This document shows, piece by piece, positions 628 through 43,500 of a DNA stretch of 64,000 nt (positions are counted from its first letter, which is position 1; every line of letters starts with the position of its first letter). This DNA comes from Erwinia billingiae Eb661 (GTDB taxonomy: Bacteria; Pseudomonadota; Gammaproteobacteria; Enterobacterales; Enterobacteriaceae): assembly GCF_000196615.1 (NCBI RefSeq), contig NC_014306.1, positions 4,588,001 to 4,652,000 of the forward strand, given 5' to 3'. The position numbers were made by a program, and so were the translations under genes. The notes beneath the pieces were generated by a model. It was not told where the DNA came from. It saw nothing but the letters and a program-made list of their open reading frames with translations, and ran no database searches.

Positions 628-3032
<2,405 letters not shown>

Positions 3033-41657: not shown

Positions 41658-42236
41658 TTATTTACGCGCGAGAAAATTCGCCAGCAGCTGATGCCCTTGC
41701 TCGCTAAGGATACTTTCCGGATGGAACTGCACGCCCTGCAGCGGCAAATGGCGATGGCGGAAGCCCATAATCTCGTCCGGTTGCCCGTCTGCGAGGGTCC
41801 AGGCGGTGATTTCAAAATCATCGGGCAGCGAGCCGTTTTCCACAATCAACGAATGGTAGCGGGTGACGGTGAGCGGATGATTCAGCCCGGCAAACACGCC
41901 GCCATCGTTGTGTTCAATGGCGGAGACTTTCCCGTGCATCACTTCGCGCGCCCGCACCACGCGCGCGCCAAACGCCTGGGCAATCGCCTGATGCCCCAGG
42001 CAGACGCCCAGAATCGGCAGCTTTCCGGCGAAGGCGCGGATAGCCGACAGAGAAATCCCCGCGTCGTCAGGCGTGCAGGGCCCCGGAGAAATCACCAAAT
42101 GTTCGGGCTGTAGCGCCGCGATCTGCTCAAGGGTGATCCGATCATTCCTGTGGACTTCAACCTCGGCGCCCAGCTCGCAAAAGTACTGGTAAAGGTTCCA
42201 GGTAAATGAGTCGTAGTTGTCGATAAGCAGTAGCAT
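41658..42236 (-). CDS. pabA: Aminodeoxychorismate synthase glutaminase subunit
   Basis: Class I glutamine amidotransferase giving ammonia to PabB for 4-aminobenzoate and folate synthesis; 192 residues. The nucleophile is in [14 protein letters not shown] (Cys79 region) and the His-Glu pair in QFHPESILS near residue 170. The start [19 protein letters not shown] is the PabA/TrpG signature. A role in anthranilate synthesis (TrpG) is less likely given the argD and fic context, which is that of E. coli pabA. Confidence 0.95.
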
Positions 42237-42269: not shown

Positions 42270-42830
42270 CTACGCACTTTCCGGCCGTTCGTTTACCACT
42301 TTGCCAAACGCGGCGGTCAGTAAGCTGAGATCCCCGTCCAGACTCGCCTGGTTCGCGGCCTGCCAGCTTTCCGCATCCATATTCTTCCACTGAATATCAA
42401 ACCCGGCCTGGATGATCACCTGCTCAAACAGCAGTCGCTGAGCGCGCCCATTGCCGTGCAGGAACGGATGCAGCACCGTGAGTTCGCAGTAATACCACGC
42501 CAGACGTTCAGTCAGCGTTTCCAGCGGCAAATCGGCCAGGCCATTCTCATCTTCGAGCGACTGCATCAGCGCATTGCCTTCTTTCTCGATATATTCGAAA
42601 TGGCAGCACGGCGTGTCGCCCAACTGGATATCAATGCGGCGCAGTTCGCCCGCATCCTCAAGGACATCCTGAAATAAGGCATGGTGAAGCGCCCGCAAAT
42701 GGGGAAGTCCGGGATGAGCAGGGCCGGGATCGAAGGCGGTGCCGTCTAACTGAAAACTGGCGAGGAAATTGGCTTCCAGTCGTTGCAGCCAAAGGCTGTG
42801 TTTTTGTTTCTCGGTGACTTTTTTGGACAT
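42270..42830 (-). CDS. fic: Fic-domain protein with YhfG-like N-terminus (apparent fusion)
   Basis: 186 residues from the ATG at 42828-42830 (GGAGG upstream). Residues 1-30, MSKKVTEKQKHSLW then LQRLEANFLASFQLDG, resemble the start of the separate antitoxin YhfG. From residue 40 the chain reads PGLPHLRALHHALFQDV, the middle of enterobacterial Fic, whose own first 50 or so residues are missing. The AMP-transfer loop is HPFLHGNGRAQR (121-132), close to the canonical HPFx(D/E)GNGRxxR but with His125 at the acidic position. SxxxDG (residues 25-30) resembles the inhibitory (S/T)xxxE(G/N) motif. Lies between ppiA and pabA where E. coli has yhfG and fic as two genes. Fusion is inferred from remembered E. 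coli sequences. Confidence 0.78.
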   Translation of the reverse strand: MSKKVTEKQKHSLWLQRLEANFLASFQLDGTAFDPGPAHPGLPHLRALHHALFQDVLEDAGELRRIDIQLGDTPCCHFEYIEKEGNALMQSLEDENGLADLPLETLTERLAWYYCELTVLHPFLHGNGRAQRLLFEQVIIQAGFDIQWKNMDAESWQAANQASLDGDLSLLTAAFGKVVNERPESA

Positions 42831-42847
42831 GCTGCCTCCATGACGAA

Positions 42848-42927: not shown

Positions 42928-43500
42928 TTAAGGCAGTACTTTTGCGGAGAGGATCACCACCGGTTTCACCGGAACATTCTGGTAAGGACCGACGTTCTGC
43001 GACTGAACCTGGGAGATTTTATCCGCCACGTCCTGGCCTTTCACAATCTTACCGAACACCGCATAGCCAAAATCACGCTGGCCATGGTCGAGAAAAGCGT
43101 TGTCCGCGACGTTGAGGAAGAACTGGCTGGTGGCACTGTCCTTGTCCGCGGTACGGGCCATTGAAATGGTGCCGCGCTTGTTCAGCAGGCCATTGTCGGC
43201 TTCGTTTTTAATCGGCGCGTTGGTCGGCTTCTGCTGCATATCCGCAGTAAAGCCGCCGCCCTGCACCATAAAGCCGGGGATCACGCGGTGGAAAGTGGTG
43301 TTGTTATAAAAACCACTGTTGACGTAATCAACGAAGTTCTTGGTGGAGATCGGGGCTTTCTGATTGTTGAGTTCCAGCTCAATGTTGCCAGCGGAGGTGG
43401 TCAACATCACATGCGTGTCTCCCTTGGCTGCCAGAGCAGATACGGAGATCGAGGACAGCGCGAGAACGGTCGCAACCGCTGTCAAAGTACGTTTTAACAT
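42928..43500 (-). CDS. ppiA: Periplasmic peptidyl-prolyl cis-trans isomerase A
   Basis: Cyclophilin-type isomerase, 190 residues from the ATG at 43498-43500 (AAGGA upstream), the E. coli length. The signal peptide [20 protein letters not shown] ends with SALA-AKGD near residue 24. Cyclophilin motifs are [33 protein letters not shown] and [10 protein letters not shown]. It is divergent from tsgA with a CRP-like site in between, and is followed by the branched repeat and fic. Confidence 0.97.

Follow-up and report, generated by a model that had tools for sequence, protein, structure and literature searches.

A single-chain YhfG-Fic protein in Erwinia billingiae and its apparently repeated origin in related bacteria

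A minus-strand gene of Erwinia billingiae Eb661, at positions 42270 to 42830 of the 64,000-nucleotide stretch of contig NC_014306.1 analyzed here (the window), encodes a protein that, judging from profile matches and conservation, is a single-chain FicA-FicT derived from a yhfG-fic pair. By the same comparisons, residues 1 to about 30 of the antitoxin YhfG and Fic from about residue 55 are kept, and the second half of YhfG, the DPY segment of Fic and Fic helix 1 are lost. We favor, with a probability of roughly 0.6, the reading that the antitoxin helix now serves as an integral brace on a Fic that is unlocked and altered, the lock itself having worn away. The gene and its parts are as follows.

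42270..42830, minus strand: fused YhfG-Fic gene, 186 amino acids (open reading frame list, Pfam)
42835..42839, minus strand: GGAGG, likely ribosome-binding site, four bases before the YhfG-type ATG
42741..42830, minus strand: YhfG inhibitory-helix segment, residues 1-30 (PF10832, comparison of hidden Markov models (HMMs), conservation, ratio of nonsynonymous to synonymous change (pN/pS))
42741..42758, minus strand: S25-F-Q-L-D29-G30, at the position of the [S/T]xxxE[G/N] inhibitory motif, Glu changed to Asp (sequence comparison)
42711..42740, minus strand: linker at the junction, residues 31-40 (TAFDPGPAHP); no DPY segment and no helix 1 of Fic
42273..42710, minus strand: Fic core from GLPHLR, residues 41-186 (EcFicT G55 onward; Pfam, NCBIfam, phmmer)
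42435..42470, minus strand: Fic motif HPFLHGNGRAQR, residues 121-132 (alignment)

The N-terminal segment of the fused protein

The original prediction, that the start of YhfG is joined in frame to an N-terminally shortened Fic, is borne out by the profile searches. Residues 3-33 match PF10832 (YhfG) at profile positions 1-31 of 54 (26.1 bits against a cut-off of 22.6; E value 8e-6), and residues 44-137 match PF02661 (Fic) with 53 bits. The protein passes the equivalog cut-off of NF007672, the NCBIfam model of enterobacterial Fic (205.3 vs 181 bits; profile positions 41-199 of 200), and remains under that of the NCBI YhfG-type model NF007573 (24.2 vs 77), as expected because only half of YhfG is present. 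Its best sequence match in the PDB is the E. coli protein EcFicT, with G55 of which G41 of the fused protein aligns in phmmer; about 54 Fic residues are therefore replaced, close to the 50 or so first thought to be missing. The clamp residues of the YhfG segment in the window protein are K4, T6, K8, Q9, K10, L13, W14, F22, A24, S25 and L28.

Local HMMs of 45 separate YhfGs and of 52 Fic N-termini were scored on the N-termini of 37 fused proteins. The YhfG model outscored the Fic model in all 37, and for the window residues ahead of the Fic core the scores are 37.6 and -1.3 bits, respectively. Conservation points the same way: over 24 positions, conservation in the 12 helices of the window's own lineage (the Erwinia type, defined below) correlates with that in separate YhfG (rho 0.53, p 0.008; rho 0.77 for all fused helices) and shows no such relation to Fic helix 1 aligned without gaps (rho 0.05, p 0.81). 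Because phmmer aligns residues 16-185 with EcFicT without a gap, helix 1 region included, the N-terminus might be taken for Fic helix 1 itself; the HMM scores and the conservation test rule this out. A chance likeness or a mis-called start is likewise ruled out by the PF10832 score, the HMM scores and the Shine-Dalgarno-like stretches found ahead of these genes.

A separate yhfG is missing from the genome, as had been supposed: even at E <= 10 there is a single PF10832 match, and it lies inside the Fic frame. Two hallmarks of a class I FicTA system are thus lacking, in that the inhibitor is not a separate small protein at this locus and the DPY segment near the FicT N-terminus is absent from the window protein, although it is present in five split Fics of the same genus.

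In 36 pairwise comparisons among nine fusions from the same genus, pN/pS averages 0.24 over residues 1-30 (range 0.08-0.52) and 0.21 over residues 41-180, and it rises to 0.58 in the linker; separate yhfG gives 0.21 and split fic 0.16 (6 pairs each), all of these values being rough, as synonymous sites are near saturation. By this measure, the fused YhfG helix is under purifying selection about as strong as that on the free antitoxin.

Distribution, independent origins and exchange

Of 37 genomes of the same genus, nine carry the fusion, five have yhfG and fic apart and 23 are without YhfG; none contains more than one YhfG match. All nine fusions are full length, each with a Shine-Dalgarno-like stretch, and they also cluster on a tree of flanking genes (support 99/95). 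Together these observations place the fusion in a clade of species named Erwinia or Pantoea. Relatives with a separate yhfG beside a Fic of the same N-terminus would have spoken against a fusion; the five genomes that do have a separate yhfG encode a Fic with the usual DPY start. Eight of the 23 genomes without YhfG show nothing beyond a weak hit to a distant Fic, and 15 give no match at E <= 1e-3; with YhfG missing and Fic absent or distant in 23 of 37 genomes, the YhfG locus seems to have been lost often in the genus.

A survey of the family found a YhfG match in 158 of 392 genomes, 17 of which were read as fused and fall into eight genus codes (g1, g2, g7, g10, g12, g133, g166, g237); among the loci read, five of these genera (g1, g10, g12, g166, g237) also have split members. 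Across the order, 33 of 394 genomes have a YhfG match, and the eight fused ones among those read all belong to the window's family. In other genera there are also frames of 165-235 amino acids with a YhfG match. The seven that were read, in L067, L113, L114, L116, L118, L119 and L120, were rejected as fusions, a separate distant Fic being present; frames of this size (165 amino acids) occur as well in G622, G746 and G762, outside the seven. The metagenomic proteins P0031 and P0032, in which an E. coli-like YhfG runs on into Fic, were excluded from the counts. Two further kinds of locus were seen in this family. In L131 and L136 (G517, genus code g203), the yhfG match is in two pieces and the Fic frame is shortened, apparently a decaying locus. 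In L067, L113, L119 and L126, from other genera, a second, more distant YhfG-like match adjoins a Fic with the canonical HPFREGNGR.

We built a maximum-likelihood tree from the Fic core only (92 rows, 37 fused and 55 split; 146 columns). It requires seven changes between the fused and split states, a number that is seven throughout the bootstrap trees, and all seven are forced by well-supported branches; constraining the fused proteins to one clade is rejected (p-AU, the approximately unbiased test, 0.0001). A single ancestral fusion is ruled out by these results, and the fusion appears to have arisen on about seven occasions among related bacteria. The earlier idea of an in-frame deletion that turned a two-protein system into one chain stands as regards the fusion; what it did not include is that the fused gene is shared across a clade and seems to have about seven origins.

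The fused proteins fall into seven tree groups: the Erwinia type, which includes L135 (12 rows); a Buttiauxella/Dryocola type (14); an Enterobacter type, which includes L110 (7); L130 and L134, each from a single genome; and P0036 and P0158, each a single metagenome protein. On this tree, the Enterobacter and Buttiauxella/Dryocola fusions are independent of the window's version. The groups also differ in what remains of the Fic N-terminus, part of which the Fic N-terminus HMM still detects in the Buttiauxella type, L130, L134 and P0158 (7 to 18 bits) and hardly or not at all recognizes in the Erwinia type, the Enterobacter type and P0036 (-1 to 5 bits). Counts of changes alone are blind to gain versus loss. 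Repeated splitting of an ancestral fusion is nevertheless disfavored by the sequences, because the DPY segment, helix 1 and the second half of YhfG would have to be rebuilt several times, and because split pairs with DPY Fics are more frequent and are found outside the family too (L071, L080).

The fusion lies between two conserved neighbors, in the minus-strand order ppiA, fusion, pabA.

42928..43500, minus strand: ppiA (peptidylprolyl isomerase A), conserved upstream neighbor (profile score; start set at an internal ATG)
41658..42236, minus strand: pabA (aminodeoxychorismate synthase component II), conserved downstream neighbor (profile score)

This order is found at 25 of the 26 fused loci and 45 of the 52 split ones, and in the remaining eight one of the two neighbors is visible within the short stretch examined. 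On the flanking-gene tree (PabA and PpiA; 69 loci, 25 of them fused), the fused label again takes seven changes, of which five or more are forced. Five loci of genus code g12 (L110, L081, L133, L086, L092) group together on their flanking genes, and their Fics fall into three lineages, two fused and one split. Fused alleles thus seem to have been exchanged into g12 at the ppiA-pabA locus, and part of the fusion's spread seems, from these trees, to reflect transfer and not new fusion. Elsewhere in the window genome there are three more Fic/Doc-family matches, at 4906879, 2504263 and 3546343, in open frames of 483, 384 and 162 amino acids.

The helix, the lock and the active site

In the E. coli complex EcFicTA, S24 and E28 of the antitoxin both bond R146, the second Fic arginine (R2), and R25 contacts T40 of FicT. 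The corresponding motif of the window protein is the SxxxDG at residues 25-30 that had been described, so that SFQLDG departs from [S/T]xxxE[G/N] in its Glu. Among split pairs, the E28 position of YhfG is Glu in 47 of 52, Asp in two (L063, L064), Gln in two and Ala in one, counted on 52 of the 55 tree rows because the other three are proteins without a readable locus. Among the 37 fused proteins, it is Glu in eight, Asp in 17, Ser in five, Gly in four, Thr in two and Ala in one. Glu is retained only in the Enterobacter type (7/7 tree rows) and L134; Asp is found in the Buttiauxella/Dryocola type (14/14 tree rows), in L130 and in P0158; and in the window's lineage the window protein has Asp and the other 11 of the 12 have Ser, Gly or Thr. 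Two proteins not included in the tree have Asn (P0005) and Asp (the near-copy P0002) at this place. Separately from the fusions, the split YhfGs L065 (Ala) and L123 and L124 (both Gln), relatives of fused P0036 and L130, are already without the inhibitory Glu.

The partners of this residue are more constant. The motif Ser is invariant in fused (37/37) and split (52/52) proteins, as is R2 (37/37 and 55/55), and L28 joins S25 in being invariant across all seven fused lineages. The position of R25 in EcFicA is Phe in 11 of the 12 Erwinia-type fusions, which are without helix 1. With Ser and R2 invariant and Glu replaced, comparison of these positions suggests that the Erwinia-type lineage has retained the clamp but not the plug.

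The active site has changed as well. The window motif, HPFLHGNGRAQR, keeps the His, the GNG and both arginines and departs from HxFx(D/E)GNGRxxR only at the D/E place, where the Mg-binding Asp/Glu is replaced by His; its R0 is Leu. None of the 12 Erwinia-type proteins has an acid there (Arg in nine; His, Lys and Thr in one each), and the five split Erwinia Fics have Asp. In BepC, a Lys at the Mg-binding place is bonded to the alpha-phosphate, and the enzyme appears to need no divalent cation (PMC8401265). The catalytic His is present in 36 of the 37 fused proteins. The exception is L135 (G576, genus code g2; frame 1053-1641, minus strand), an Erwinia-type short fusion with LSPFRRGNGR, which to judge by this motif is probably not an AMP transferase.

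These losses, of the Mg-binding acid in all 12 Erwinia-type proteins and of the catalytic His in L135, would suit a protein that has lost catalysis and persists in a binding or structural role. We consider this the least probable of the explanations discussed here, because His and both Arg are intact in the other 11 Erwinia-type proteins, the block LAWYYCELTVLHPF is invariant across the nine same-genus fusions and pN/pS of the core is 0.21.

R0 holds the DPY lock in EcFicT (PMC5033356). It is Arg in all 55 split Fics and in four of the 37 fused ones, and its loss in fused Fics fits the loss of DPY. R0 loss accompanies fusion in about four of seven independent pairs, which is not significant (p 0.125). 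The four that keep Arg despite having no DPY are L134, L135, P0036 and P0158; the perfect DPY-R0 correlation reported in 2016 thus fails in this set.

In the reading we favor, the antitoxin helix would still lie in its old groove, now in cis, with S25 held against the second Fic arginine, R132, and would act as a lasting brace where Fic helix 1 has been lost. The lock having worn in the Erwinia lineage (Glu to Asp, Ser, Gly or Thr), the protein would be no latent toxin awaiting decay of its antitoxin; it would be a constitutively unlocked Fic, usually with a basic residue at the site that normally holds Mg2+. The parallel with BepC suggests that this residue could contact the substrate phosphate directly. 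More tentatively, one might extend this to a wider account, which we hold possible and somewhat short of probable: that a toxin-antitoxin pair has been domesticated repeatedly by a single deletion, joining the first helix of the antitoxin to the Fic core and removing both known locks, the one made by DPY and the remainder of the antitoxin, with the helix becoming a structural part of an unlocked enzyme, a basic residue standing in for Mg2+ in Erwinia, and fused alleles passing between genera at ppiA-pabA.

The original prediction envisaged a self-inhibited, class II-like Fic, in which Asp29 would replace Glu and hold R132, so that the enzyme stays off until some signal displaces the helix. Going by sequence order, the topology, with an N-terminal helix in cis, is class II-like, S25 and R132 are invariant, and where Asp (all of the Buttiauxella/Dryocola type) or Glu (all of the Enterobacter type) is present, self-inhibition may well hold. 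For the window's lineage it did not stand up and we think it unlikely, since 11 of the 12 members have Ser, Gly or Thr at the lock position; a change of E to G relieves inhibition at the lock site, AntF E28G being defective in inhibiting Fic-1 (PMC13327609).

Two structure models bear on the position of the helix. A model from fused proteins only (29 rows) has a mean pLDDT (predicted local distance difference test) of 64 and a helix at residues 7-27. A deeper model (104 rows) is well predicted in its core (mean pLDDT 86). When the fused-only model was compared with known structures by VIA-align, the match to 4x2e, which we take to be a class II Fic, spans residues 5-186 and FICD entries mostly cover 1-186, N-helix included; the four best class I chains begin at model residues 42-68. 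The titles of sister entries of 4x2e name S31 and E35. On the deeper model, class I chains begin at residues 22-24, C. difficile Fic at 5 and FICD at 1. From these models there is a weak hint that the start of the fused helix occupies a class II-like place.

Several points weigh against the brace reading. The fused-only model does not resolve the motif, and in the deeper one residues 23-30 have a pLDDT below 50 and the N-helix spans only residues 7-17. Most whole-length structural matches have a root-mean-square deviation of about 4 to 5 A, and three class I or Bep chains (3zc7, 4n67, 4wgj) begin as early as model residues 15-18. A change of the Glu accompanies fusion in three of seven independent pairs, never the reverse, and is not significant (p 0.25); in the P0036 lineage the Glu was apparently lost before fusion, as its split sister L065 already has Ala. 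Asp29 of the window protein may itself still inhibit. The fused Fic, like E. coli FicT (PMC5033356), is also without a known substrate or activity. Finally, residues 24-40 of the deeper model run along residues 37-54 of EcFicT, the end of helix 1, which fits the proposal that part of the stretch replaces helix 1.

According to that proposal, the N-terminal helix stands in for Fic helix 1, out of the inhibitory groove, and its likeness to YhfG reflects ancestry only. Besides the course of residues 24-40, the length of the helix and its register to helix 2 match EcFicT without a gap. We doubt it, to much the same degree as self-inhibition, because conservation tracks YhfG and not helix 1, with S25 and L28 invariant in 37 of 37 proteins of seven lineages, and because the alignment of the deeper model, which placed N-termini of split Fics on the fused N-terminal stretch, biases that model toward helix 1.

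Relation to known Fic systems

The closest known system is EcFicT/EcFicA (fic/yhfG; PDB 5JFF, 5JFZ; PMC5033356), which shares with the window fusion the ppiA-pabA locus, two homologous parts and the Ser-R2 pair. The fusion differs in being one chain, without the DPY lock, Fic helix 1 or the second half of YhfG, and in having R1 as Arg (Leu in E. coli) and R0 as Leu (Arg in E. coli). Another homologous pair, the deAMPylase Fic-1/AntF (PDB 8WT0; PMC13327609), has the same S24-R146 contact. It consists of two proteins, and AntF E28, the antitoxin-side glutamate needed for its deAMPylation, is Asp in the window protein.

By sequence order, class II Fics (FICD, CccR) likewise have an inhibitory-type helix N-terminal in the same chain. 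In the window fusion, by contrast, the helix comes from an antitoxin gene, Fic helix 1 is gone and the inhibitory Glu is absent. A precedent for N-terminal joining is found in the Bartonella proteins Bep3/1, Bep3/2 and Bep4, in which the antitoxin is fused N-terminal to FIC (PMC8401265); the window fusion has only the first antitoxin helix and is a resident chromosomal gene. BepC (PDB 4WGJ) resembles the Erwinia-type fusions in replacing the Mg-binding acid of the Fic motif by a basic residue, but with Lys where these have His, Arg, Lys or Thr, and it is a host-directed effector, not described as an antitoxin-helix fusion in the text available to us.

E. coli Fic founded its family. The fusions amount to about seven natural experiments that deleted much the same parts and so mark three of them as dispensable: the DPY lock, helix 1 of Fic (in whole or in half) and the second half of the antitoxin. 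Retained throughout were R2, S25 and the clamp residues, and the catalytic His in all but one protein. This argues that the job of Fic survives permanent union with the antitoxin and, in Erwinia, unlocking from it, and the 'double lock' and 'toxin' readings of enterobacterial Fic become testable.

A search of the open-access literature found no naming of enterobacterial YhfG-Fic fusions, and proteins named only 'Fic' in databases carry a hidden antitoxin part. In 2016, Stanger and co-workers described an Enterobacter FicT 'subgroup 2' that has an N-terminus of its own and a five-residue deletion, lacks DPY and carries a residue other than Arg at R0 (PMC5033356). The Enterobacter fusions reported here are similar, with 194 amino acids, no DPY and Met at R0 in the seven tree rows. 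We infer from these likenesses that 'subgroup 2' is a YhfG-Fic fusion, not so named in the sections of that paper available to us, which is a possible explanation for the odd Enterobacter N-terminus of the 2016 structure paper. These Enterobacter proteins differ from the window protein in their separate origin, a longer linker, Glu at the lock position in 7/7 tree rows and an R1 of Ile or Val.
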